Part shown: positions 49,434-63,612 of the stretch, piece after piece
Numbering within the stretch: position 1 is the stretch's first letter
Layout: each line of letters opens with the position of its first letter
NCBI RefSeq assembly: GCF_002007205.1
Contig: NZ_LAZS01000011.1
Coordinates: 62,001 to 126,000, forward strand
DNA length: 64,000 bases
Direction: 5' to 3'
From: Ensifer adhaerens
GTDB lineage: Bacteria > Pseudomonadota > Alphaproteobacteria > Rhizobiales > Rhizobiaceae
The notes under the pieces: model-generated
Database searches by the model: none
What the model was told of the DNA's origin: nothing
Seen by the model: the letters and a program-made list of their open reading frames with translations, nothing else
Translations under genes and position numbers: made by a program

Positions 49434-50261
49434 TCAGCGTGACTTCAGCTTCATGTGGCGGTTCACGTCCTTGTAGAGCAGGTAGCGGAACTTGCCCGGG
49501 CCGCCGGCGTAGCAGGCCTGCGGGCAGAAGGCGCGCAGCCACATGTAATCGCCGGCCTCGACCTCGACCCAATCCTGGTTAAGGCGGTAGACCGCCTTGC
49601 CCTCGAGCACATAGAGGCCGTGCTCCATGACATGTGTCTCGGCGAAGGGAATGATCGCGCCGGGCTCGAAAGTGACGATCGTCATGTGCATGTCGTGGCG
49701 CAGATCGGTGGGGTCGACGAAGCGGGTCGTCGCCCATTTGCCGTCTGTGCCTGGCATCGGCGACGGGGTGATTTCGGCCTCATTGGTGAAGAAGGCCTCC
49801 GGTACGGGCAGACCGTCGACATATTCGTACGCCTTGCGTACCCAATGGAAGCGAACGGTCGATTCGCTTCCATTGCGAACCGTCCAGTTGCTCGCCGGCG
49901 GGATGAAGGCGAAGCCGCCCGGTTGCATCTTGTGCGCCTTGCCGTCGAGCGTGACAGTCAATTCGCCCTCGACGACGAAGATCGCGCCCTCGGCGCCTTC
50001 GTCGAGTTCCGGCCGGTCGCTGCCGCCGCCCGGAGCGATTTCCATGATATATTGTGAAAATGTTTCAGCAAAACCGGAGAGCGGGCGCGACAATATCCAC
50101 AGCCGGGTCTTGTCCCAGAACGGCAGATAGCTGGTGACGATGTCCATCATCGTCCCCTTCGGAATCACCGCATAGGCTTCGGTAAAGACCGCGCGATCCG
50201 AAAGCAGTTGGGTTTGTGGCGGGTTGCCGCCGTGCGGCGCATAATAGCTACGGTTGGTCAT
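49434..50261 (-). CDS. allE: (S)-ureidoglycine aminohydrolase
   Basis: The protein has 275 aa with two cupin domains. It hydrolyses (S)-ureidoglycine to ureidoglycolate and ammonia in allantoin breakdown and needs Mn. Seen: TNRSYYAPHGGNPPQTQLLS at the N-terminus, GAEGAIFVVEGELTV (cupin 1) and ETHVMEHGLYVLEGKAVYRL with metal-ligand His/Glu (cupin 2), then a final WLRAFCPQACYAGGP. ATG 50261 has GGAAG upstream; the longer frame is not conserved. It is downstream of the GntR gene on the same strand. Confidence 0.92.
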   Translation of the reverse strand: MTNRSYYAPHGGNPPQTQLLSDRAVFTEAYAVIPKGTMMDIVTSYLPFWDKTRLWILSRPLSGFAETFSQYIMEIAPGGGSDRPELDEGAEGAIFVVEGELTVTLDGKAHKMQPGGFAFIPPASNWTVRNGSESTVRFHWVRKAYEYVDGLPVPEAFFTNEAEITPSPMPGTDGKWATTRFVDPTDLRHDMHMTIVTFEPGAIIPFAETHVMEHGLYVLEGKAVYRLNQDWVEVEAGDYMWLRAFCPQACYAGGPGKFRYLLYKDVNRHMKLKSR

Positions 50262-50330
50262 ATCTTCCTTCAGTCTGCTGGCAGGCACCGCCTCCTCTAA
50301 AGTGCGGTGCAATGGGTCACGCGCTCCGCA

Positions 50331-51017
50331 TCAAAGCAATGCGGTGCGAAGATCGCGGGGCAGGTCTTTCTCCTCGTCCAGATCCAGTTCCGCTTCCACG
50401 TGGTTCAGGTGCTCGGCCATTTCCTTGATCGCGCTCTCGACATCGCGCGAGGCGATGTGCTCGACCACGGCCAGATGTTCGTCCGGCCCGCAATTGTGCA
50501 GGTGGTTCGACCGGTACATCGCGGTGATCAGGGATGTGCGGGAGACAAGGTCGCGCAGGATGCCGAAGAGAAAGGCCGAGCCCGACAGTTCCGCAAGCAG
50601 GAGGTGGAAACCGCCGGAAAGCCGAACGATATCAGAGAGATTGCCGGATCGGCCGGCAATGCGCTCCTCTTCGATATGGGCGCGCAACCGGACGATATCC
50701 TTGGGATTGGCCCGCTCGCAAAGCCGCTCGACGACGCGCTGCTCGATCGCCCTGCGGGCAACGAAGACATCGCGTGCCTCGTCGACCGAAGGCTCGGAAA
50801 CGAACGCGCCCCGGTTCGGCATGATCGTCACCAGGCCATCGCGCTCGAGCGCCGTCAGTGCCTGACGAATGCGAGCCCTGCTGACGGAGAATATTTCGGC
50901 AAGTTGTTCTTCCTTCAATCGCGTTCCCGGCCGTAGCCGACGTTCTGCAATCGCAAGCCAGATCTTCTCGCAAATGATCGCCGTCGGAGCACCGGCGGCT
51001 TCGTCCGCGTTGTACAT
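50331..51017 (-). CDS. GntR/FCD family transcriptional regulator
   Basis: The protein has 228 aa. The N-terminal winged helix is LRPGTRLKEEQLAEIFSVSR then ARIRQALTALERDGLV, followed by an FCD ligand-binding domain (about 85-215) with the helical HLLLAELSGSAFLFGIL and a metal-type EHIASRD. Its gap with the flavin-reductase gene contains a dyad repeated upstream of the dpp-like operon. It probably represses both until an inducer binds. Confidence 0.92.
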   Translation of the reverse strand: MYNADEAAGAPTAIICEKIWLAIAERRLRPGTRLKEEQLAEIFSVSRARIRQALTALERDGLVTIMPNRGAFVSEPSVDEARDVFVARRAIEQRVVERLCERANPKDIVRLRAHIEEERIAGRSGNLSDIVRLSGGFHLLLAELSGSAFLFGILRDLVSRTSLITAMYRSNHLHNCGPDEHLAVVEHIASRDVESAIKEMAEHLNHVEAELDLDEEKDLPRDLRTALL

Positions 51018-51096: not shown

Positions 51097-51116
51097 TACA
51101 AAATTGTAGACAATAT
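51097..51116. promoter_or_regulatory. Candidate GntR operator, copy 1
   Basis: TACAAAATTGTAGACAATAT, with the core TTGTAGACAA. It matches 18 of 20 bases of the inverse strand of the site at 63593-63612. It lies 80 bp from the GntR ATG and 93 bp from the flavin-reductase ATG. Confidence 0.65.
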
Positions 51117-51208
51117 TGTGTACCGCAACTTGATGTGCAATGGCAACCGCTTAAACACGACCGTGCGACCGGCACAAAACCGGCCCGCGGCGCCAATTGA
51201 GAGCTCCG

Positions 51209-51853
51209 ATGGACTTCGATTTCACAGAACTGCCGGCCCAGGACCGTTACCGCCTGCTGACGAATTTCATCGGTCCGCGACCGATCGCGCTGGTTTCCAC
51301 GCTCTCGCCGAGCGGACAGGACAATGCGGCGCCGATGAGCTTCTTCAACGTGTTCTCGCACGACCCGCCGATCGTCATTCTCGGCATCCAGACCCGCCCC
51401 AACGGGGAGGAAAAGGACACGGTTGCCAATATCCGGCGCACCAACGAGTTCGTCGTCAACATGGTGGACATGGCGATCGCCGACCAGATGCTGGTCTGCG
51501 GCCTGTCGTTCGAGCCGGATGTCGACGAGGTGGCCATCGCCGGGCTGACGGCGGCCGACGGTCACAAGGTCGGTGCCCGCCGCATCGTCGAGTCGCCCTG
51601 CTCGATGGAATGCCGCGTCGAGCGGCTGATCGAATACGACCGCCGTGTGATCGTTCTCGGCGAGGTCGTTCATATGCACGTGCGCAAGGACTGCCTCGAC
51701 GAGGAAGGCCGCTACGTCGACCCGTCGCAATACCAGCCGATCGCCCGGCTGCATGCCAACAACTACATCACCTCGGACCGGCAGTTCGTCATGCCGACGC
51801 CCGACATTACCGCCTATGCCCCCCTCGCAAACGCCATGCGGAAGACGAGCTGA
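51209..51853 (+). CDS. Flavin-reductase-like domain protein
   Basis: The protein has 214 aa and one flavin-reductase/FMN-binding split-barrel domain: YRLLTNFIGPRPIALVSTLS, AAPMSFFNVFSHDPPIVILG and a central NEFVVNMVD. Such proteins supply reduced flavin or act as two-component oxygenase partners; no oxygenase is nearby. ATG 51209 was used over a TTG at 51197. It ends 3 bp before the racemase gene and is divergent from GntR. Confidence 0.87.
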   Translation: MDFDFTELPAQDRYRLLTNFIGPRPIALVSTLSPSGQDNAAPMSFFNVFSHDPPIVILGIQTRPNGEEKDTVANIRRTNEFVVNMVDMAIADQMLVCGLSFEPDVDEVAIAGLTAADGHKVGARRIVESPCSMECRVERLIEYDRRVIVLGEVVHMHVRKDCLDEEGRYVDPSQYQPIARLHANNYITSDRQFVMPTPDITAYAPLANAMRKTS

Positions 51854-51856
51854 TCC

Positions 51857-52591
51857 ATGCGCATCCTGCTGATCAATCCGAACTCCACCCGCTCGATGAC
51901 GGAACAGGCGCATCGCAGCGCCGAGCGCGTCGCTGCAACCGACACCCAGCTCGAATCGATCAACCCGACGTCGAGCCCGGCCAGTATCGAAGGCCATGCG
52001 GACGAAGCGATGGCGGTGCCGGCGATGCTCGCGGAAATCCGCAAGGGCGAAGCCCGCGGCATCGATGCCTATGTCATCGCCTGCTTCGACGATCCCGGCC
52101 TTGGCGCGGCGCGCGAGATCGCGCGCGGTCCTGTCATCGGCATCTGTCAGGCTGCCGTGCAGGTGGCGATGAACATCGCGACCCGCTTTACCATCATCAC
52201 CACCCTTCCCCGTTCGGTGCCGATCATCGAGGACCTGGCCGAGGCCTATGGTGCCGGTCACCGCTGCCGTAAGGTGCGCTCCGTCGACATGCCGGTACTG
52301 GCGCTGGAGGAGGATCTTGAGCACACCGAGGAGATGCTGGTTCAGGAAATCCTGAAAGCACGCCAGGAGGATGGTGCGGAAGCGATCATTCTCGGCTGTG
52401 CCGGCATGTCCGAACTCTGCGATCGCCTGAAGGCGCGCACCGGCATGCCCGTCATCGATGGCGTGACCGCGGCGGTGAAGCTTGCCGAAGCGCTCGTCGG
52501 CGGCGGTTATGCCACCTCGAAGGTGGGCGCCTACGACTATCCGCGCACCAAGGAAGCGCCGGCCTGCCGGTTGGTTGACGCCGCCGGCTGA
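51857..52591 (+). CDS. hyuE: Asp/Glu/hydantoin racemase family protein
   Basis: The protein has 244 aa. It starts with RILLINPNSTRSMTEQAH (substrate-binding Asn) and has catalytic Cys residues in YVIACFDDPGLGAAREIA and ILGCAGMSELC. Fits hydantoin or allantoin racemases. It is 3 bp after the flavin-reductase gene, so one transcript. No hydantoinase is present beside it. Confidence 0.87.
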   Translation: MRILLINPNSTRSMTEQAHRSAERVAATDTQLESINPTSSPASIEGHADEAMAVPAMLAEIRKGEARGIDAYVIACFDDPGLGAAREIARGPVIGICQAAVQVAMNIATRFTIITTLPRSVPIIEDLAEAYGAGHRCRKVRSVDMPVLALEEDLEHTEEMLVQEILKARQEDGAEAIILGCAGMSELCDRLKARTGMPVIDGVTAAVKLAEALVGGGYATSKVGAYDYPRTKEAPACRLVDAAG

Positions 52592-52608
52592 ACGCGACTG
52601 ATAAGGGT

Positions 52609-52632
52609 CACCGGGCGCCATGCCGCCCGGTG
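52609..52632. terminator. Perfect hairpin between hyuE and the DUF480 gene
   Basis: CACCGGGCG (52609-52617) pairs with CGCCCGGTG (52624-52632), between convergent genes. There is no T-run, so it is weak as an intrinsic terminator. Confidence 0.45.
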
Positions 52633-52652
52633 GTTCTGCCCCCTCGCGCTTG

Positions 52653-53303
52653 TCAGCGCGTCAAGGCGTCCAGCTGCTCCTGCAGCGTTGCCACTTTCTG
52701 CTCAAGCGCTTCCAGGCGCTCTTCAAGGGCGGACAGCCCCGAGCCCGCCGAAACCGCCGACGTGGCAGCCCGCTCAAAAGTCGGCTGTTCGATTTCGCCG
52801 CAAAGCAGATGCGCAAACCGGTCCTCGCGCTGGCCGGCGCCCCGGTTCAGTTGCACAATCAGCGGCGGCCGGCGCCCGATCATCAGATCCAGATTGTCCT
52901 TCAGATCCTCGATCGACGAGAACCGCGCCATGCGCTCGCTGCGCGCCCAAAGTTCGTAGGCCGTCTGCGGGCCGCGAAGAAGAAGCAGGCCAAGCATGAC
53001 GATCTGCGGCGACGTCAGCGAGAAGCGGTTCGCCACCATGTGCTCGTAGCGCTCGACCCGCGACGCGAATGCCTGCCGGACCAATCCCTTTTGCCCCAGC
53101 GACGAGAGCGCGCGGTGGATCTCGACCTGCTCGAGCGCCATGACGGGATCGCGCGCCGTCTTTTGGTTGGCAGCCGAATGGGCTGAATTGAGCGTCAACG
53201 GATAGACGTCGGGCGTCGTTTCCTTCTTCTCGATCAGGCATCCGAGAACGCGGGCTTCAACGGCATTGAGGACGGGGAAATCGGTGTCGGAGGTCGTATT
53301 CAT
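52653..53303 (-). CDS. DUF480 (YceH-type) protein
   Basis: The protein has 216 aa with two winged-helix-like halves. Seen: LNAVEARVLGCLIEKKETTP, DVYPLTLNSAHSAANQKTAR, and RGPQTAYELWARSERMARF, all typical of YceH/DUF480, plus a C-terminal coiled coil (LEERLEALEQKVATLQEQLD). Function unknown; possibly DNA-binding. ATG 53303 was chosen by homology. Confidence 0.9.
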   Translation of the reverse strand: MNTTSDTDFPVLNAVEARVLGCLIEKKETTPDVYPLTLNSAHSAANQKTARDPVMALEQVEIHRALSSLGQKGLVRQAFASRVERYEHMVANRFSLTSPQIVMLGLLLLRGPQTAYELWARSERMARFSSIEDLKDNLDLMIGRRPPLIVQLNRGAGQREDRFAHLLCGEIEQPTFERAATSAVSAGSGLSALEERLEALEQKVATLQEQLDALTR

Positions 53304-53634
53304 AAGCCAACTCTTCAAATCAACGCATTTCGATCCCAGCCGCACCTCCAAGGCGAGGCGCAGTCCGGGCCTTCGGCCCCTACCCTAGCGTGAGTGTCGA
53401 AGCCCGGAAATGGTCATCGGTCTATTTCGTTGAATTCCGGTTAGCACGGACTGAAAACCAGGCATGGATCTGGCTCGGGCCGCTTCTCAGTTGCGCTAGA
53501 ACGTCCGCAGACAGCGAAATGGAATGGCGGATATTGCGTGGTTCTCGCAATCGACGCGCCAAGCCAACAGCCCAGCCGCACCCGGCACTGAACTACTGGA
53601 GCAAGACGAACGATGATTGCCGCCGAGCGAAGGT
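53304..53634. other. Intergenic stretch, no supported gene
   Basis: 331 bp between the divergent starts/ends of DUF480 and the SGNH gene. An 82-codon open frame (53390-53638, plus) exists but has no ribosome site, odd composition and no recognisable domain. No clear hairpin or repeat was seen. Confidence 0.5.
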
Positions 53635-54762
53635 CTAATTCGCCGGCACGCTTTTTGCTGCGACCGGAAGCCCGGCAATCTCGCCGAGCCATTTGTTGAA
53701 GGCCGGCGTCAAGGATGTCGCCACCACCCGGTTTCCTGCGGGTGTTAGATGACCGTCGAAGCGATAGTAGAGCTCCTCCCCGGTGGCCGCATAGGCGTCG
53801 GCCAGGGGGGCAAGCATCGGAAACCACCCCATCCCCTGCTCGGCAGCAAACGCCGTGAACTCGCGGTCGACATAACCTGCGTCGATCAACTCGGATTCCT
53901 CACCCTTGGCGCGGGCGATCACCTGGAAGAGCTGCGGGATCGAGACCACGGCGAATTCGATGTCCTTGGTCCGGCAGAACTCGCGAGCCCGGGTAAGCAA
54001 CGCTCGCGTGGTCGCCATCTGGCGGTTCATCACGTCGGTCGGATGGGCGCGGAAATAGTCGGCACGCGGGGTCACCTGGTAGAGGCGCATGTAAATCGCA
54101 TCGTTCATCATCATCAGCCGCGTTGCCAGGACCACGCTGTGGAGACTTGACTTCTTGTCGCTGGAGGCGCGCACGGCCGGATCGTTGAATTCCGTCTGTT
54201 CGGCCCCCGCCTGCGTGGCCGCCCCATCTGTTGCGAGCGGCATGTTGGTGAACAGGTCATTGGTAAGAAAGGTCATCACGACGGCGTCGGGATGCAACTG
54301 ATCGACGAGCCTCTCGATGTAAAGTGTCTCTGTACGCGTGTCGTAGGCCGGCACGCCCGCCTTGATGATCTCGACCTTGCGGCCGGCATCACGCAGGCTT
54401 TTTTCCAGAATGACGGCCCAGGCCTCGTCATAGGCATTGCCGACACCGAAGGCGAAGGAGTCGCCTACCAGCAGGATCCGCGTCACACCCGGCGTCGGAG
54501 AAGGGGGATAGACAGTGAGGTCACGAAACCCCTGGGAATTGACCTGGTAGTCCGACGTGTATTCCGGACCCGTGACCTTAATGTGCGCGTTCGGCCGATT
54601 GACATGTCCGAGCACCGGATCGCGCAGGCCGAGCGGCTCGCCCCCGATCAGGGTCGTATCCAGCCTCTGCGGAGCGAAGGCGCGAAGGCCGAATTCAATG
54701 CCGGCGAAGATCACGCCGGTAATCGCGACGATGACCACTGTATCCCGAAGAAACTTGAGCAC
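53635..54762 (-). CDS. SGNH/GDSL-type hydrolase with N-terminal anchor
   Basis: The protein has 375 aa. One N-terminal hydrophobic helix (VVIVAITGVIFAGIEFGL) places the catalytic part in the periplasm. The catalytic Ser102 lies in LLVGDSFAFG, an Asn block in FLTNDLF, and Asp/His in FDGHLTPAGNRVV. Family members esterify or de-esterify glycans and lipids. GTG 54762 has GAGG upstream; upstream frame is less likely. Substrate unknown. Confidence 0.8.
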   Translation of the reverse strand: MLKFLRDTVVIVAITGVIFAGIEFGLRAFAPQRLDTTLIGGEPLGLRDPVLGHVNRPNAHIKVTGPEYTSDYQVNSQGFRDLTVYPPSPTPGVTRILLVGDSFAFGVGNAYDEAWAVILEKSLRDAGRKVEIIKAGVPAYDTRTETLYIERLVDQLHPDAVVMTFLTNDLFTNMPLATDGAATQAGAEQTEFNDPAVRASSDKKSSLHSVVLATRLMMMNDAIYMRLYQVTPRADYFRAHPTDVMNRQMATTRALLTRAREFCRTKDIEFAVVSIPQLFQVIARAKGEESELIDAGYVDREFTAFAAEQGMGWFPMLAPLADAYAATGEELYYRFDGHLTPAGNRVVATSLTPAFNKWLGEIAGLPVAAKSVPAN

Positions 54763-55232
54763 GCTTGCCTCGCTTAGGTCAGTGCCACCACCGCAATCAT
54801 CCCTGCATTTGCAGGCGTATTCGGAGAAGACGTGTTGGCAGGAGACGGGCAACAACCGGTGGAGTTACCAGTGCAAGACGCGCTTGCGCCTTGAGAAACT
54901 TTCGGCGGCCATCCCCGACGTCAAAAAATTGCGATCATATGCCGTTGATGAAAATGCATTAAAAACGTCCTGACCAGAGTATCCGGCCCGAAGACAACTC
55001 ACAATATATCCTCCGATATAGACCTAAATAGCTATAGATACACGGAGACTACATTGGCTGACCAGCGAAGTCTGGGGCACCACATACAAATGCGCAAAGT
55101 CTCTCCTTGGCCCAAGACTTTCCGCGCAGCATGATGGCTTCTCGATTTCGACCTGCGAAAGGCCCTGTGAAATCCGTCCATCGATGAGCGACTTGCCGGC
55201 GTCCGTGACCACAGTCAAAGTCCGCGAACCGC
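54763..55232. other. Intergenic stretch of low GC, no supported gene
   Basis: 470 bp between the SGNH gene start and the terminator of the dpp-like operon. A short part (about 55000-55045) is AT-rich with small palindromes (ATATATCCTCCGATATA). A 71-codon minus frame (55024-55239) has no homology I recognise and no good ribosome site. A small RNA or promoter is possible. Confidence 0.4.
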
Positions 55233-55272
55233 AAAACAAAAAAGGCCCCGCGACTGGAACGACACGGGGCCC
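55233..55272 (-). terminator. Intrinsic terminator of the dpp-like operon
   Basis: On the minus strand GGCCCCG (55265-55271) pairs with CGGGGCC (55244-55250), followed by TTTTTTGTTTTG. It is 28 bp after the last ATPase stop. Confidence 0.82.
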
Positions 55273-55299
55273 AAGTCCTGGGAGAAAGAAGCTTTGCGG

Positions 55300-56280
55300 C
55301 TAGGCCGCGTTGATCGCCTTCACCGTCTCTTCGATGCGATGGCAGGCGGCGCGCGATCCATCGGCAAAGCTGCGCATCTCCGGCCTCTCGCTCTTGCAGC
55401 GGGCATCCGCGAAGGGGCAGCGGGGATGGAAGGTGCAGCCGGACGGTGGGTTGAGCGGGCTCGGCACCTCGCTCGCCGCAATGCTGCGTCCCCGCTTCGG
55501 ATGGGTGATATCCGGGATCGTCTCCAAGAGCAGCTGCGTATAGGGATGCCGCGGATTGGCAAAAAGCGTCTCGGTGTCCGCCTCCTCGACGATCCGCCCA
55601 AGATACATCACCGCGATCCGGTCCGACATGTGGCGAACCACGCTCATGTCGTGGCTGATGAAGAGATAGGTCAGCCCCATCTCGTCCTGCAGCTTGCGCA
55701 TGAGGTTGAGGATTTGCGCCTGCACCGACACGTCGAGCGCCGAGGTCGGTTCGTCGCAGACGAGAAACTCCGGCTCGCCGGCAAGCGCGCGGGCGATCGA
55801 GATGCGCTGGCGCTGGCCACCCGAAAACTCATGCGGGAACTTGGCGCCGTCGGAAGGCGCGAGGCCGACGATCTTCAGCAGTTCGCCGACGCGTTCCATG
55901 ATTTCGGCTTCCGAATTGCGCAGCTTCAGCTCGCGCAGCGGCTCGGCGATGATGTTGCGCACCCGCCAGCGCGGATTGAGGCTGGCATAGGGATCCTGGA
56001 AGATCATCTGCGCTGAAAGCGGCTCGCCGCTTTTGCCCGGCGCAAACCGCACCTCGCCTTCACTCGCACGATAAAGGCCGGTGACGAGCCGCGCCACCGT
56101 CGACTTGCCGCAGCCGGATTCGCCGACAAGGCTCAGACAGCCGCCCATCGGCACGCTGAAGCTGATATCGTCCACGGCGCGGACGAACTGCCGCGGCTTG
56201 CGCTCGATCACGCGGTTAAGCCAGGGGGCGGAAACATCGAAATTGCAGGTCAGGTCGTTGACCGTCAGGGCATCACTCAT
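55300..56280 (-). CDS. Oligopeptide-type ABC transporter ATPase (DppF-like)
   Basis: The protein has 326 aa. Walker A GESGCGKST, signature FSGGQRQRISIARAL, Walker B LVCDEPTSALD, and the C-terminal oligopeptide/dipeptide domain with three Cys (CTFHPRCPFADARC), which may hold an Fe-S cluster. It starts with a 4-bp ATGA overlap with the DppD-like gene. It drives uptake together with the DppD-like partner. Confidence 0.93.
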   Translation of the reverse strand: MSDALTVNDLTCNFDVSAPWLNRVIERKPRQFVRAVDDISFSVPMGGCLSLVGESGCGKSTVARLVTGLYRASEGEVRFAPGKSGEPLSAQMIFQDPYASLNPRWRVRNIIAEPLRELKLRNSEAEIMERVGELLKIVGLAPSDGAKFPHEFSGGQRQRISIARALAGEPEFLVCDEPTSALDVSVQAQILNLMRKLQDEMGLTYLFISHDMSVVRHMSDRIAVMYLGRIVEEADTETLFANPRHPYTQLLLETIPDITHPKRGRSIAASEVPSPLNPPSGCTFHPRCPFADARCKSERPEMRSFADGSRAACHRIEETVKAINAA

Positions 56281-57263
56281 AGCACTCCTCCTGCATTGAG
56301 CCAGCATGCGGCGACGCCGGTCCCGACCTGCGCCGGTTCGGGCCTATCCTTGCGGCAGCGCGGTCCCGCATCCGGGCAGCGCGGGTTGAAGGCGCATCCG
56401 GCCGGGATCGCATTCAGCCGTGGCATGGAGCCGTCGATCTGGTTCAGCCGCTCGACACGGCGGCCAAGCGCCGGGATCGAGCCCATGAGGCCACGCGTAT
56501 AGGGGTGACGCGCATTTTTCAGAACCTCGGCGACCGGACCGATCTCGACGAGACGACCGGCATACATGACCGCGACGCGATCGGCCGTCTCGGCAATGAC
56601 GCCCATGTCGTGGGTAACGAGCATGACGGCGGTGCCATGATCGTCGCAGAGCCGGCGCAGCAGCGAAGTGATCTGTGCCTGGATCGAGACGTCGAGCGCC
56701 GTCGTCGGTTCGTCGGCAATGATCAGCTTCGGCTCTGCGGCGAGCGCCAAGGCGATCACGACACGCTGGCGCATGCCGCCGGAGAACTGATGCGGATAGT
56801 GGTCGTAGCGCGCTTCGGGCGCCGGGATGCCGACTTCCTTCAAGAGCTGGATGGCGCGCGCCTTGGCGTCGGCCTTGGAAAGCTTCAGGTGAAGGCGGAT
56901 GGTTTCAACAAGCTGCGCCCCGACGGTGAAGAGCGGGTTCAGTGAGGTCAACGGGTCCTGGAAGATCGCGCCAATCTGCCGGCCGCGTACCTGCTGCATC
57001 TGCTTGTCGTCGAGCTGGTCGATGCGGCGGCCGCCGACCCAGACCTCGCCGCCGGAAATGCGGCCAGGCGGCTCGAGCAGTCCCTGCACCGCAAGGCCGG
57101 TCATCGACTTGCCGGCGCCGGATTCGCCGACGACGCCGAGGATTTCGCCGGGGCGAATACTGAGCGAAACGTCGGAAAGCGCCTGCACCGTTCCGTGACG
57201 ACCGGGGAACTCGACACAGAGGCCGCGCACATCCAGCACGGCCGATGATAGATGTTCTGTCAT
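56277..57263 (-). CDS. Oligopeptide-type ABC transporter ATPase (DppD-like)
   Basis: The protein has 328 aa. Walker [10 protein letters not shown], signature [15 protein letters not shown], Walker [13 protein letters not shown], and the C-terminal [14 protein letters not shown] oligopeptide motif. It overlaps the chlorohydrolase-type gene by 4 bp at its start. Second ATPase of the transporter. Confidence 0.93.
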
Positions 57264-58744
57264 CGCTGCACCTCCAATGGGTAGCTTGGCGGGAAGATCT
57301 CGCTGACCGGTGGGTGGCCGAAGCTTCGTTCCGGATACTTCGCGATCAGGCCATCGAACTGGACCTGCGCTTTTGCGCGTGCCTCGTTCATATCGAAGCC
57401 GGCAACTTCACCGTCCCGCATCGACAGGCGGCCGTCGACGAAGACCGCCTTGGTGACGCGTCCCGATCCGCCGACGACGAGTGTCGTGATCGGATCGATA
57501 GCCGGCGCCATGTGGTGGTCCATGAGGTCGAAGACGGCGATATCGGCGCGGGCGCCCGCCTCCAGGCGACCGAGGTCGGATCGGCCGAGCGCCTTGGCAC
57601 CGCCGAGGGTGGCGGCATCGAAGAGATCGGCGCAGCTGACCGCCGCCGGATCGCCCTCGACCACACGGGCCGCAATCAAGCCGACCAGCAGGTTCATCAG
57701 CATGTCCGGCGGCGTGGTGTCGGTGCCCATGGCAATGTTGACGCCCCGCGCCTTAACCGAACGGAACGAGTTGAGCGTGCTGCCGCCGCGGGCCGAAACC
57801 AGCGGGCAGTGCACGATGCTCACGCCATTTTCGGCATAGAGCCGCAGATCGTTATCGGTCGCCTGCGTCGCATGCGGCGCGATCAGGCGGTCCGAGAGAA
57901 AACCGAAGCTCGCCAGCCATTCCGGCGCCGTCTTGCCGTGCAGGCGGCGTACGGTTTCGACCTCCATCGTACCCTGTGCGGCGTGAAGCCGGATCGGGCA
58001 GTTGAGCTCGCGCGCCGCGTCGGCGGTGCGCACCAGCAATTTCTCGGTGCAGGTCTCCACCCGGTCCGGCGCCAAAAGCCCCTTCACCAGGCCACCGTGG
58101 CGGCCTTCATGCTCGCGGATGAAGCCGATGGCATCGTCGAGGCCCTTGAGGCCCCTCGCCTCGTCGAAGATCGCTTCGAGCTGTCCCGGCGCGGTGACCA
58201 TCATGCCGCCGGCGCGGTAGGCCGGGCTCAGATAGACGCGCAGGCCGAGGTCGCCCGCCGCATCCGATGCGGCTGCGAATTCCGCGACGGTCTCGCCCCA
58301 TTCGCGATAGAAGAGCGAGGCGATGGGGGCTGCCGTTGTGATGCCGTTCAAGAGAAGCTGCGCGAAGGCGAAGCGTTTCTGGAACGCCAGTTCCTCCTGC
58401 GTGTACATCTCGTAGGGTCCACGCTCGATGTAGGTGCGTGGCCAGACGCGACCCTTGGCCCAACCTGGCTGGTGGTCGATCGCAAGGATCGTCGTGTCGA
58501 GATCGGAGAGCGCGTCGAGATCGATCAGGCCCGGGCTGATCATCGCCGCGCCGAGTTCGATGCGGCGTGCCACCTCACCCTCGAAACGTGGGCCGACATA
58601 GATGAGCGTGCCGCCCTCGATGACGACCTCGCCATTCGGGACAAGCCGGTGCGAACCGTCGCGGTGCCCGAGCACCCATTGCGCCGTCAGAAGCGTGCGT
58701 CCTTCGGCCCGCTGGCCGAGCGTCAAATCCTTGATGCTGCTCAT
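57260..58744 (-). CDS. Amidohydrolase, chlorohydrolase-like, lacking the HxH motif
   Basis: The protein has 494 aa in the amidohydrolase TIM barrel. The usual PGLIDxHxH metal motif reads ISPGLIDLDALSDLDTT, without HxH. Later elements are LHAAQGTMEVE (His), LIAPHATQATDND and MGTDTTPPDMLMN (Asp). The pattern recalls the chlorohydrolase-family group. Catalysis may use another metal set-up. It is in an ATGA-coupled row with its neighbours. Confidence 0.83.
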   Translation of the reverse strand: MSSIKDLTLGQRAEGRTLLTAQWVLGHRDGSHRLVPNGEVVIEGGTLIYVGPRFEGEVARRIELGAAMISPGLIDLDALSDLDTTILAIDHQPGWAKGRVWPRTYIERGPYEMYTQEELAFQKRFAFAQLLLNGITTAAPIASLFYREWGETVAEFAAASDAAGDLGLRVYLSPAYRAGGMMVTAPGQLEAIFDEARGLKGLDDAIGFIREHEGRHGGLVKGLLAPDRVETCTEKLLVRTADAARELNCPIRLHAAQGTMEVETVRRLHGKTAPEWLASFGFLSDRLIAPHATQATDNDLRLYAENGVSIVHCPLVSARGGSTLNSFRSVKARGVNIAMGTDTTPPDMLMNLLVGLIAARVVEGDPAAVSCADLFDAATLGGAKALGRSDLGRLEAGARADIAVFDLMDHHMAPAIDPITTLVVGGSGRVTKAVFVDGRLSMRDGEVAGFDMNEARAKAQVQFDGLIAKYPERSFGHPPVSEIFPPSYPLEVQR

Positions 58745-59937
58745 GGGATGGCTACCTCCGCAACGCCATTGCGGGCGACGACACGGCCGCGCTTGACGAC
58801 CAGCGGCCGCGGCGCGACGTCGACGACGGCATGTGCCAGCGTCTCGCCAGTGAGCAGGGTGAAATCGGCATCACAGCCAACCTCGAGGCCATACCCCTTG
58901 ATATCCATGACGTCGGCGCCGCCCTTGGAGCAGACGTAAAGCGCATGCTCGAGATCGACGTCGCGGCGCAGGCCATTTTTCATGCCGAGGATGCGGGCAC
59001 GATCCATCATGTCGGGCTGACCCCAAGGACCCCAGGTGTCGCGGATGCCGTCGCAGCCGGCAGCGACCTTCACGCCGGCATCCTTCAGGCGCAGGATCGA
59101 CGGCACGGTCGAGGACGGCGAACCGGTAGTGACGATGCGGATATCGAGTTCGGCGATCTGTTCGATCAGGCCGCCAACGCGCAGATAGTCGGGAGCGCCG
59201 AGCGCAAAGGCGTGGCTGATCGCGACCTTGCCCTGCATGCCAAGCGCGCGGATGCGCTCGAACATCATTTCCATGCTGAAGGCGCCAAGTTCGCCCTGCT
59301 CGTGCAGGTGAATGTCGATCGGCTTGGAGTGCTTGTCAGCAAGGCCGAAGATCGCGTCGAGATGGCCCTTCGGATCCCGGTCGATGCCACAGGGGTCAAT
59401 GCCACCAAGCACTTCCGCGCCATTGCTCAGAGCCTTGTCGAGCAGCTCGACCGTGCCCGGACGGGTGACGAGGCCGGACTGCGGGAAGGCGACGATCTCG
59501 ATATCGATGACGTCCTTGAGCGCCTTTCGGGTCTCGATGATGCCTTCCATCAGCCTCAGGCCATGGGTGGTGTCGATGTCGACATGGCTGCGGATATGGC
59601 TTGCGCCGTTGGCGGCCAGCATGATCGCCTGGCGCATGGACTGTCGGTGCGGATCGATGCCGATCTCAAGCCGCTTCTCGCGTTCGAAATCGATGCGCTC
59701 GCGCAGTGTCGCGGTCTTGGCGTTCACATGCCAGGGCATGCCCCAGACGGACTTGTCGAGATGGGTATGGGCTTCGACGAGGCCGGAGATCACGATATGG
59801 CCGCTGCCGTCTTCGACTGCCACGCCTTCGGCGGCGAGGCCCTTGCCGAAGACGGCGATCTTGCCGTCGCGCACGAGAATGTCGGTCGCTTCGCCGGCGT
59901 TGGGCCTGACGTTACGGATCAGGAGATTGGACATCAT
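58741..59937 (-). CDS. Cytosine-deaminase-like amidohydrolase
   Basis: The protein has 398 aa. The metal motif is intact (GLVEAHTHLDKSVWGMPWHV), with IDIHLHEQGELG, ISHAFALG and GCDGIRDTWGPWGQPDMM completing a CodA/TrzB-type active site. Members deaminate pyrimidines, isocytosine, creatinine or triazines. ATG 59937 (tandem ATGATG) has GAGG. It abuts the DppC-like stop. Confidence 0.87.
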   Translation of the reverse strand: MMSNLLIRNVRPNAGEATDILVRDGKIAVFGKGLAAEGVAVEDGSGHIVISGLVEAHTHLDKSVWGMPWHVNAKTATLRERIDFEREKRLEIGIDPHRQSMRQAIMLAANGASHIRSHVDIDTTHGLRLMEGIIETRKALKDVIDIEIVAFPQSGLVTRPGTVELLDKALSNGAEVLGGIDPCGIDRDPKGHLDAIFGLADKHSKPIDIHLHEQGELGAFSMEMMFERIRALGMQGKVAISHAFALGAPDYLRVGGLIEQIAELDIRIVTTGSPSSTVPSILRLKDAGVKVAAGCDGIRDTWGPWGQPDMMDRARILGMKNGLRRDVDLEHALYVCSKGGADVMDIKGYGLEVGCDADFTLLTGETLAHAVVDVAPRPLVVKRGRVVARNGVAEVAIP

Positions 59938-60888
59938 TCACCTCAATTTCGGATTGAGCGCATCGCGCAGCCAGTCACCAAGCAGGTTGACCGAGACCAC
60001 GAGAAGGCAAAGCTGGACGACGGGGAAGAGCACGACCCACCATACGCCCGAGAACAGGAACTGGTTGCCGAGACGGATCAGCGTTCCAAGGCTCGGCTGG
60101 CTCGGCGGCATGCCGATGCCGAGGAAGGAGAGCGTTGCTTCCGTCAGGATCGCCATGCCGAAGTTCAGGGTCGCGGCAACCATGATCGGCGTCAGCGTGT
60201 TCGGTAGGATATGCTTCAGCATGATGCGCCGTGCCGGCGTCTTCAGCAGGCGCGCCGCCTGCACATATTCCTTGCCGCGCTCGACAATCGTCTGGGCGCG
60301 CACGGTACGGGCATACTGCACCCAGGCGCTGAGCGTGATCGCCAGCACCAGAACGGCGGCCGAGCCGACGTCCCGAAGTTCCGGCGGCAGCATCTGGCGT
60401 GCGACGGCACTGACGAGGATGGCGATCAGGATGGTCGGGATCGACAGAAGCACATCACCGATGCGCATCAGGAAGTTGTCGATGAAGCGGCCGAAATAGC
60501 CGGCAACGAGCCCGAGGCTAAGGCCCACGGCGAGCGAAAGCACGACCGAGGCGACGCCGATCAGGATCGAGATGCGCGAGCCGTAGAGGATGGCCGAGAG
60601 CATGTCGCGGCCCTGCGTGTCCGTGCCGAGCACGTAGGGCCATTGGCCATCGGCTTCCCAGATCGGCGGAAGCTCGGAATTCCAGAGCTCGAGCTGGGCC
60701 GGATCGAAGGGATTCTGCGGCGCAATCAGCGGCGCGGCAAAGGCGGTCACGATCAGGAAGGTGAGGATGACCGCGCCGATGATCGCCGAAGGCTTGTGGG
60801 TGAAGGACCACCAGAGATCGCTCTGGCGGAAGCGCGCAAGCCGCGAAGGCTTGCGTGCCGGTGTGGTCTGCTGGACGTGATCTGTCAT
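59938..60888 (-). CDS. Oligopeptide-type ABC permease (DppC-like)
   Basis: The protein has 316 aa and six TM segments. The EAA loop (VQAARLLKTPARRIMLKHIL) and N-terminal OppC domain (SDLWWSFTHKPSAIIGAVIL) are present. ATG 60888 has GAGG; ATG 60912 is possible. It forms the channel with the DppB-like subunit. Confidence 0.93.
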   Translation of the reverse strand: MTDHVQQTTPARKPSRLARFRQSDLWWSFTHKPSAIIGAVILTFLIVTAFAAPLIAPQNPFDPAQLELWNSELPPIWEADGQWPYVLGTDTQGRDMLSAILYGSRISILIGVASVVLSLAVGLSLGLVAGYFGRFIDNFLMRIGDVLLSIPTILIAILVSAVARQMLPPELRDVGSAAVLVLAITLSAWVQYARTVRAQTIVERGKEYVQAARLLKTPARRIMLKHILPNTLTPIMVAATLNFGMAILTEATLSFLGIGMPPSQPSLGTLIRLGNQFLFSGVWWVVLFPVVQLCLLVVSVNLLGDWLRDALNPKLR

Positions 60889-60898
60889 GGCAACGACC

Positions 60899-61870
60899 TC
60901 AGCGGGTTGCATCGCGCAACCGCGGATCGATGACCGCATAGGCGATATCGACGAGCGTGTTGAGCGTGACGAAAATGAAGGAGACGATGCAGAGATAACC
61001 CGCCATGACAGGCATATCGAGGAAGGTCACCGCCTGGATGAAGAGCATGCCCATGCCCGGCCACTGGAATACGGTTTCGGTGATCAGCGCGAAGGCAATC
61101 AGCGAACCGAAATTCATCGCCGTCATGGTGACGACAGGCATCAGACAGTTTCTGAGCGCATGCCGGAAATAGATTCGCCACCGTGGCACGCCGCGAGCGC
61201 GTGCGAACTTGACGAAGTCTGAGCGCAGCACTTCCATCATCTCGGCGCGGACGAGACGCATGACCAGCGTGATCTGGTAGAGCGCGAGCGCCAGAGACGG
61301 CAGAAGCAGCGAGGCGCGGCCGGAAGCGGTCAACAGGCCCGTGCTCCACCAGCCGAGCTGCACGACATCGCCGCGACCGAAAGCGGGCACGAGGCCGAGC
61401 GTGACGGCAAAGACGAGGATCAGCAGGATGCCGACGACGAAGCTCGGGAGCGAAACGCCGATGATGCTGATGAATTGCAGCCCCTCGGAATACCATCGCC
61501 CGCGATGGATGGCGGTGATGACGCCAAGCGGAATACCGATCAGGAGCGACAGGACGGTTGCGACCAGCGCCAGCTCCATTGTCGCCGGGAAGCGCTCGGC
61601 AATCAGCTTCATCACGTCCTGGCCGTTGCGGTAGCTGATGCCGAAATCGCCCTGGGCGGCGTTGCCGACGAAGCGGCCGAACTGGGTCAGGAAGGAATCG
61701 TTGAGCCCGAGCTTTTCGCGCAGTTCGATACGATCGGCCTGCGACATCTGCTCGTTGGCCATCAACTCAACCGGATCGCCGGCAAAGCGGAAGATCAGGA
61801 AGGCGAGCAGCGCGACGGCGAGCATGACCAGCACGGCGTTGGCCAGCCGCTTGATGAGAAAGACAATCAT
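60899..61870 (-). CDS. Oligopeptide-type ABC permease (DppB-like)
   Basis: The protein has 323 aa and six TM segments. The N-terminal LIKRLANAVLVMLAVALLAF and the EAA loop (VKFARARGVPRWRIYFRHAL) are typical. It is separated from the binding protein gene by a 58-bp gap holding a hairpin. Confidence 0.93.
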   Translation of the reverse strand: MIVFLIKRLANAVLVMLAVALLAFLIFRFAGDPVELMANEQMSQADRIELREKLGLNDSFLTQFGRFVGNAAQGDFGISYRNGQDVMKLIAERFPATMELALVATVLSLLIGIPLGVITAIHRGRWYSEGLQFISIIGVSLPSFVVGILLILVFAVTLGLVPAFGRGDVVQLGWWSTGLLTASGRASLLLPSLALALYQITLVMRLVRAEMMEVLRSDFVKFARARGVPRWRIYFRHALRNCLMPVVTMTAMNFGSLIAFALITETVFQWPGMGMLFIQAVTFLDMPVMAGYLCIVSFIFVTLNTLVDIAYAVIDPRLRDATR

Positions 61871-61894
61871 AGGGTTTCTCGCTGAATGAGAAGG

Positions 61895-61918
61895 CCCGGC
61901 AGAGAGAACTCTGCCGGG
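61895..61918. other. Perfect hairpin between DppA-like and DppB-like genes
   Basis: CCCGGCAGAG (61895-61904) and CTCTGCCGGG (61909-61918) form a 10-bp stem with an AGAA tetraloop. No T-run on the minus strand. It probably protects the 3' end of the binding-protein mRNA and lowers downstream expression. Confidence 0.65.
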
Positions 61919-61928
61919 ACAAGGAAAC

Positions 61929-63491
61929 TCAATCGCCGATACGGGTCAGCCAGTGACGCGGCTTGTTGTCGGCCCGGATGGTCACGTCCGTGACATTCTT
62001 CGACATCGCCCAGGCCATCGGCTGCTGGTGCAGCGGGATCATAATGACCTCGTCCTTGGCAAACTTCAGCGCTTCGGTTTCGATCGCCAGACGCTTGTCG
62101 TGATCCATTTCGAGCGCGGCCTTCTTCACCATCGCGTCAAGTTCCGGATAGGACCAGCCACCGTAGTTGGCGACGCCGGCTGCACCTTCACGCGTCGAGA
62201 GAACCTGAACCAGGATCGAATAGGCATCGAGCGTCGGCTCGTTGGCCCAGCCGATCATATAGGCGTCGGACTTGCCGCCGGCGCGCTTCGGTGCCTGGAC
62301 GGCGCGCGGGCCGATGTCGAGGGTCGGCTTGAGACCGACGCGCGACAGCATCGAGACGAGCGCACTGCAGACGTCTTCCTCGTTGACGCTCTCGTCGTTC
62401 ATGCAGACGAGCGTGAACTCCTTGCCGACGGCGCCGGCCTCTTCAAGGAGCTTCTTGGAGAGTTCCGGATCATAAGCGGTCGGCACGTCGAGCTCGGCGC
62501 TGTAGCCGGGGATCTCAGGGGCGACCATGGTGCCGGCGACATGCGACTTGCCGCGCATGACGCGCTTGAAGATCAGCTGACGGTCGATGGCGTGGTCGAT
62601 CGCCTGGCGCACCTTGATGTTGTTGAAGAAGTTCTCGCGACCGTCGGCGAAGGTCTCGTGACGGTTGAAGACCATGTGCACCGTGCGCAGGTCCGTGCGC
62701 TCGATGACGTTGATGTCCGGGGAACTTTTCAGGCGCTCAAGATCCTGTACGGGAGCGCCATCGGTGAGGTCGATTTCGCCCGAAAGCAGGGCTGCGACGC
62801 GGGTCGCTGCCGAGGTGATCGGCATGAATTCGATGCGGTCGAGATTGTGCTTCGGCGCATCCCACCAGTCGTCGTTCTTGATGAGAACCGTCTTGCTGTC
62901 GGGAACGCGCGACTCGACCTTGAACGGACCAGTGCCGTTGGTGTTGTAGGTGGCAAAGCCCTCGACCTTGGCGCCGACGTCGGTCGGGAGTTCCGACTTG
63001 TTGTCCACCAGCCAATCCTTGTCGAACATGAAGATGTTGGTCATGTCGTTGAGGAACAGCGGGTTCGGCGAGTTCACTTCGATGTCGACCGTGTAGTCGT
63101 CGACCTTGGTGGTCGAGACATAGGCCGGAATGTTGCCGCGCAGCGGCGAGGTCGGATGGCTGACGCGGGCCATGGAGGCAACAACGTCATCGGCGGTGAA
63201 ATCGGCTCCATTCTGGAACTTCACGCCCTTGCGCAGGTGGAAGCGCCAGACCTTCTCGGAAACCATCTCCCAGCTGGTGGCGAGCGCCGGCTCGACCTTG
63301 AACTCGGGCGTATAGCGCGTCAGGCCCTCATAGACGTGATTGAGGAAGGCCAGGTTCGAGGTGCTGCCATAGGAATAGGGGTCGAGCGAGAAGATGTCCC
63401 GCGGGCTACCCCAGCGCAGCGTCTCGGCGGATGCGGAGGATGCGAGAAAGGCAAATGCCAACCCCGCGAGGAGATGCTTTCTCAGTTTCAT
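61929..63491 (-). CDS. Oligopeptide-type ABC substrate-binding protein (DppA-like)
   Basis: The protein has 520 aa. Signal peptide (HLLAGLAFAFLASSASAE) and the SBP_bac_5 fold: ETLRWGSPRDIFSLDPYSYG, VWRFHLRKGVKFQNGADFTA, VRQAIDHAIDRQLIF. It gives substrate specificity to the transporter in the periplasm. Family 5 binding proteins carry peptides, nickel, opines or nucleoside-type compounds. It is first gene of the operon. Confidence 0.94.
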   Translation of the reverse strand: MKLRKHLLAGLAFAFLASSASAETLRWGSPRDIFSLDPYSYGSTSNLAFLNHVYEGLTRYTPEFKVEPALATSWEMVSEKVWRFHLRKGVKFQNGADFTADDVVASMARVSHPTSPLRGNIPAYVSTTKVDDYTVDIEVNSPNPLFLNDMTNIFMFDKDWLVDNKSELPTDVGAKVEGFATYNTNGTGPFKVESRVPDSKTVLIKNDDWWDAPKHNLDRIEFMPITSAATRVAALLSGEIDLTDGAPVQDLERLKSSPDINVIERTDLRTVHMVFNRHETFADGRENFFNNIKVRQAIDHAIDRQLIFKRVMRGKSHVAGTMVAPEIPGYSAELDVPTAYDPELSKKLLEEAGAVGKEFTLVCMNDESVNEEDVCSALVSMLSRVGLKPTLDIGPRAVQAPKRAGGKSDAYMIGWANEPTLDAYSILVQVLSTREGAAGVANYGGWSYPELDAMVKKAALEMDHDKRLAIETEALKFAKDEVIMIPLHQQPMAWAMSKNVTDVTIRADNKPRHWLTRIGD

Positions 63492-63592
63492 GTCGTTCCC
63501 TTTGTTTTCTCATAAGTCGCCATAATCAGGCGCCCTCGCCCACTCGTGAGCAAGCCACCCTAGATTTGAAGCTGTCGGCGACAATGTCAACT

Positions 63593-63612
63593 ATTTTGTC
63601 GACAATTTTGTA
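63593..63612. promoter_or_regulatory. Candidate GntR operator, copy 2
   Basis: ATTTTGTCGACAATTTTGTA, with a perfect TTGTCGACAA core. Its inverse strand matches the site at 51097-51116 in 18 of 20 bases. It lies about 100-120 bp upstream of the binding-protein ATG (63491). Confidence 0.65.

Follow-up and report, generated by a model that had tools for sequence, protein, structure and literature searches.

The 64,000-nucleotide window analyzed here, taken from contig NZ_LAZS01000011.1 of Ensifer adhaerens (whole genome of 6,874,104 bases in 22 contigs), carries two gene groups 12 kb apart that share a short palindromic element in their promoter gaps. The first group is built around the gene of a GntR-family regulator of the FCD (FadR) subfamily (50331..51017, minus strand; 228 amino acids), the proposed owner of the element, with a ureidoglycine aminohydrolase-like gene behind it and divergent flavin-reductase-like and racemase genes; the second is a transporter-amidohydrolase operon whose first gene encodes a family 5 solute-binding protein (61929..63491, minus strand; Pfam SBP_bac_5). 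The two groups are separated by a DUF480 gene and one of GDSL/SGNH type. The proposed operator in the GntR/flavin-reductase gap, S1, occupies 51097..51116 (plus strand; TACAAAATTGTAGACAATAT), with the core TTGTAGACAA at 51104-51113, and that before the operon, S2, occupies 63593..63612 (minus strand, compared as reverse complement; TACAAAATTGTCGACAAAAT), with the core TTGTCGACAA at 63596-63605. The regulator contains an N-terminal GntR winged helix domain (PF00392, 56.4 bits, cut-off 27) and a C-terminal FCD domain (PF07729, 76.5 bits, cut-off 24.3), and its putative binding site is a palindrome with the GT-N2-3-AC centre characteristic of FadR/FCD operators (TTGTNNACAA in the footprint counts below).

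Direct comparison confirmed that S1 and S2 are identical in 18 of 20 bases, as an earlier note on this DNA had claimed. That note had centred them on TTGTnGACAA; the shared sites stood, and the palindromic core was corrected to TTGT-NN-ACAA. S1 lies between the ATG of GntR (51017, minus strand) and that of the flavin reductase (51209, plus strand), and S2 precedes the start codon of the binding-protein gene (ATG at 63491, minus strand) by ∼100 bp. Automatic gene tags flagged S2 as coding, and likewise a related site on contig C4 described below, which we attributed to spurious open reading frames (ORFs).

That the likeness arose by chance, or marks a promoter fragment that was duplicated and has no regulatory meaning, appears extremely unlikely. 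At their best-matching 20-mer, the two promoter gaps agree in 18 bases; among 500 dinucleotide-shuffle pairs the maximum was 16, reached eight times, so that chance likeness was rejected. A duplicated promoter was rejected as well, since the 60-base flanks of the two sites agree at only 17 and 11 positions, indicating that there was no copying of a longer stretch. The conservation and co-occurrence reported below also contradict these explanations. What speaks for chance is the abundance of the bare core, with 34 palindromes in the genome (reversed control, 20), and the bare core was rejected as a specific marker. Frequent random matches, the ground on which the earlier note would have doubted the element, are thus found for the bare core but not for the 20-mer: with up to three mismatches, the S1 20-mer occurs at three places in the whole genome (S1 itself, S2, and a place on the opposite strand that overlaps S1), and its reversed control at none. 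What distinguishes S1 and S2 is the longer 16-mer context ACAAAATTGTNGACAA, which is exact only at these two sites genome-wide and recurs with one mismatch at one further place (C19:819495).

To describe the conservation of the element, we used two partly overlapping and hence not independent sets of loci, one from a family sample of 297 genomes (GntR match at 1e-40 in 90 of them) and one of named loci (the best 80 of 127) from Ensifer, Agrobacterium, Rhizobium, Mesorhizobium, Aminobacter, Phyllobacterium, Brucella/Ochrobactrum, Pseudochrobactrum, Rhodobacteraceae, and others. Footprints were counted within 250 bp upstream of GntR and 400 bp upstream of the binding-protein gene, excluding identical sequences and binding-protein genes cut by the locus end, which would otherwise give false upstream positions. 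Exact TTGTNNACAA preceded GntR in 60 of 85 distinct regions (shuffle mean, 0.5), the flavin-reductase gene in 53 of 70 (0.35), and the binding-protein gene in 41 of 59 (0.25). It was also found before OppB in 24 of 71 regions, OppB being the first gene behind the site in some species, and before the racemase gene in 3 of 73. It preceded the OppC, OppD, OppF, and two amidohydrolase (AH1 and AH2) genes in none of the 73 to 88 regions each, and the ureidoglycine aminohydrolase gene in none of 15. The family loci agreed, with the footprint before GntR in 25/35 and before the binding protein in 17/27. Within the genus, S1 was unchanged over its full 20 bases in each of the 16 genomes, and the S2 promoter retained an exact core in all 15 loci with the binding-protein gene. 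In two loci of one genome (L066 and L037, genome G071), ∼113 extra bases containing apparent inverted repeats stand between an unchanged S1-type site and the GntR start.

S2 has a longer form (63585..63606, minus strand; ATTGTCGACAAAATAGTTGACA) that comprises the operator plus TTGACA, a possible -35 box or second half-site. This longer site, searched as ATTGTNNACAANNNNRTTGACA, was present in 28 of the 297 family genomes at 35 places, its reversed control in none. Close GntR orthologs (E up to 3.5e-70, at least 56% identity) were counted by hand in 32 of the 297 genomes; the longer site was found in 22 of these 32, and 22 of the 28 genomes with the site have the ortholog, compared with 10 of the 269 without it (Fisher p = 2e-20 from a table entered by hand, to be taken only as a guide because the genomes are related). 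Among the 30 of 35 places whose loci were examined, all 24 from ortholog-carrying genomes precede a binding-protein or OppB gene. These 24 loci, together with the six from other genomes considered below, indicate that the GntR class shares the core and that the longer site is mainly a feature of this system. In the sixteenth genus genome (G299), no match to the binding protein was obtained at 1e-150, but the longer site is present ∼10 kb from the GntR gene.

The gene neighborhoods of relatives link the two halves of the window. In most relatives examined in both sets, the regulator, enzymes, and transporter form one contiguous cluster. Among the 80 named loci, OppD/OppF were present in 76, the racemase in 73, the flavin reductase in 70, and the amidohydrolases in 74 and 75, with all seven tested partner genes in 64; several of the loci with missing genes are truncated at the end of a contig or of the locus itself. 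In L092 and L096, one site heads a run of nine partner genes that share an orientation, and GntR is transcribed divergently from them; L095 is arranged in the same way without a racemase match. A list of other recurrent neighbors, in which the gene calls include likely antisense ORFs, served only to pick four proteins. The two halves had no matched DUF480 relative between them in the Ensifer-type loci L067, L105, L106, L107, and L109. The flavin-reductase gene was unmatched in L102, L103, L104, and the Pseudochrobactrum-type loci L110-L114 and L179, and the latter also gave no racemase match and kept the transporter and amidohydrolase genes. One of them (L113), from a record titled Bacillus subtilis SK6B4, has the Pseudochrobactrum version of the cluster and is perhaps a mislabeled or mixed record.

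Taken as a whole, this is a real, conserved local regulon of the FadR/FCD GntR type, new but ordinary. Judging from sequence, S1 and S2 are very probably operators of the GntR regulator at 50331-51017, which would place both gene groups, and with them the import and degradation of one compound, under shared control. The single regulator proposed in the earlier note is clearly the best-supported reading, favored by the one-cluster arrangement of relatives, by the site before both units, and by the longer site tracking the GntR gene across the 297 genomes. Several observations weigh against this reading or parts of it. The exact core is absent upstream of GntR in 25/85 regions and upstream of the binding-protein gene in 18/59, the loci without it including Pseudochrobactrum and several Rhodobacteraceae, and the longer site is absent from 10 of the 32 ortholog-carrying genomes. 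Of the six longer-site loci in genomes that lack the ortholog, five also hold a different GntR-type gene and one does not. Besides S1, 6 of the 34 cores in the genome lie within 3- to 5-kb loci holding another GntR-type gene (C2:291409, C4:11612, C21:254886, C21:255635, C4:499901, and C4:499935), so that cross-binding or control by a paralog is possible; the last two are both cores of the C4 site described below, which has another FCD-GntR gene directly upstream. As to the sign of control, the operator stands just upstream of a possible -35 box, a position that fits activation as well as repression.

Alternatively, the sites could be real FCD-class operators through which another GntR paralog, or several, controls one or both operons. 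The cores beside other GntR-type genes and two further matches of 42 to 43% identity listed in this genome speak for such an arrangement. It is nevertheless improbable, considering that the longer site co-occurs with this very ortholog (22/28), that the core precedes the gntR gene itself, and that five of the six exceptions have a different centre (AT or GT). A further variant site was seen in L267 (genome G157), where a 67% relative of the flavin reductase stands beside a 42% relative of GntR, perhaps a sister system.

Control by the window GntR probably extends to a lone binding-protein gene on contig C4 (C4:497790-499346; L099, genome G000), which is 64% identical to that of the operon and has an operator pair, ATTGTCGACAAAGACGTTGACA, ∼550 bp upstream; no close-identity OppBCDF relatives were matched within its 20-kb locus. 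The C4-type lone gene occurs in 10 of 16 genus genomes, with a core 375 to 655 bp upstream in 10/10. It is likely a third target of the regulator; the neighboring FCD-GntR could be the one that uses the C4 sites.

In the proposed mechanism, a GntR dimer would read TTGT-NN-ACAA. Under GntR control would come the regulator's own gene and the ureidoglycine aminohydrolase gene that follows it, the flavin-reductase and racemase genes on the divergent side, the operon at 12 kb distance (binding protein, OppBC, amidohydrolases, and OppDF), and, probably, the lone C4 gene. S1 contains GTNNAC-like boxes at 12-bp steps (GACTAC, GTAGAC, and GTGTAC), and S2 has a GTTGAC box 12 bp on, within TTGACA; these weaker boxes at 12 bp suggest side-by-side dimers. 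The downstream dimer at S2 would cover the possible -35 element, which favors repression relieved by a ligand. Provided that GntR binds, regulation is probably repression that is lifted by the imported compound or a product, which could be rich in nitrogen and resemble a ureide or hydantoin. With the same regulator and sites, activation of the transport operon by GntR is the main alternative, though less likely: the S2 operator ends 5 bp before TTGACA, with its centre ∼10 bp upstream of the possible -35 box, and HpxS is placed among the FCD activators or repressor/activators in PMC4609117. On the other side stand the GTNNAC box within TTGACA, where binding would block polymerase, and the location of S1 less than 100 bp from each of the divergent start codons, a position that fits autorepression; neither point is decisive. 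A weak -10-like sequence was picked at 16 to 20 bp, and at 18 to 19 bp in 47 of 65 nonredundant sites, within a range imposed by the script; these 65 sites were chosen by their TTGACA spacing and are therefore no independent test of it, as the controlled longer-site count is.

The enzymes that would be controlled from S1 begin, on the regulator's strand, with an (S)-ureidoglycine aminohydrolase-like bicupin (49434..50312, minus strand), which exceeds the NCBIfam cut-offs of NF008373 (539.7 bits, cut-off 445) and TIGR03214 (300.9 bits, cut-off 200) and is the only protein in the genome over the latter. Its gene is likely co-transcribed with GntR. It is linked to the cluster in 15 of the 80 named loci: in nine of them, of the Ensifer type, it is a neighbor of GntR, and in the other six, from Rhizobium and Phyllobacterium, it follows the racemase gene. 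This linkage in two arrangements points to a ureide-like product. On the other strand, the flavin-reductase-like FMN protein (51209..51853, plus strand; Pfam Flavin_Reduct, scanned from a TTG at 51197) has the 2-nitrobenzoate nitroreductase 4z85 as its best match in the Protein Data Bank (PDB). It is followed by an Asp/Glu/hydantoin-type racemase (51857..52591, plus strand; PF01177 [Asp_Glu_race], 204.3 bits, cut-off 31). The closest PDB sequences of the racemase are a putative hydantoin racemase (3qvj and 3qvk) and an allantoin racemase (5lfd), two names from which the substrate is not deducible. The cysteine motif CFDDPG was conserved in 81 of 81 aligned sequences and GCAG in at least 61 of the 81; the window protein has both, and we take their cysteines to be the two of the active site.

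Behind the binding-protein gene, the operon continues on the minus strand with an OppB/DppB-type permease (60899..61870; Pfam BPD_transp_1), an OppC/DppC-type permease (59938..60939; BPD_transp_1 and OppC_N over cut-off), AH1 (58741..59937; cytosine-deaminase/AtzC-like, NCBIfam PRK05985 over cut-off, PDB 6nbo), AH2 (57260..58744; PRK06151 "chlorohydrolase" family, over the NCBIfam cut-off), an OppD-type ATPase (56277..57263), and an OppF-type ATPase (55300..56307), both ATPases with Pfam ABC_tran and oligo_HPY domains. AH2 carries GLIDLDALSDLD, with DLD in place of the HxH of more distant amidohydrolases in the same loci, and DLD is found in all six listed variants, together 96 of 100 aligned sequences. 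The roles of deamination and racemisation given in the earlier note are predicted from family membership only. No allantoinase gene was found in the cluster, whose amidohydrolases score above the thresholds of other NCBIfam families, and no gene in the genome exceeds the TIGR03178 allantoinase cut-off, the best reaching 284 of 358 bits (C18:88041). This match may still be an allantoinase, and allantoin itself may be the substrate.

Tentatively, these genes could form a not yet described regulon by which rhizobia scavenge a heterocycle resembling a ureide or hydantoin, in which an Opp-type system with a spare binding protein encoded elsewhere would take up the compound, two amidohydrolases (one with DLD for HxH) would open it, and the remains would pass through the racemase and the only recognized ureidoglycine aminohydrolase of the genome. 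A 20-base likeness seen by eye has thus led to a testable regulon of plant-associated bacteria whose regulator is named. It connects the ureidoglycine aminohydrolase and the lone C4 binding protein with a catabolic cluster, and its regulator offers a direct way to the substrate.

No paper on this gene set was recognized among the matches listed in our literature search. According to PMC4494728, sites of FadR-subfamily GntR regulators consist of TKGT/ACMA boxes that are usually 3 nt apart, with a 2-nt spacing in the GntR, HpxS, HypR, MdcY, PrpR, and UxuR groups, and often with a weaker extra box 7 to 12 nt away. The window regulator shares both Pfam domains of FadR/FCD regulators, and TTGTNNACAA fits the TKGT/ACMA pattern, the 2-nt spacing, and the added boxes at 7 to 12 nt; no named ortholog was identified for it among the FadR/FCD regulators. 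In Klebsiella, the HpxS regulon comprises hpxSAB and serves purine/allantoin use. Like the window, it has a GntR gene near an allantoin/hydantoin-racemase-like gene and an operator with 2-nt spacing; it differs in that the Ensifer genome shows no allantoinase gene over the TIGR03178 cut-off, the cluster having an Opp/Dpp-type transporter and two other amidohydrolases instead. The transport genes in turn resemble Dpp/Opp peptide transport operons in having a family 5 binding protein, two permeases, and two ATPases, but differ from them in the two amidohydrolase genes inserted between the permease and ATPase genes, and the cargo of this transporter is probably not a peptide.

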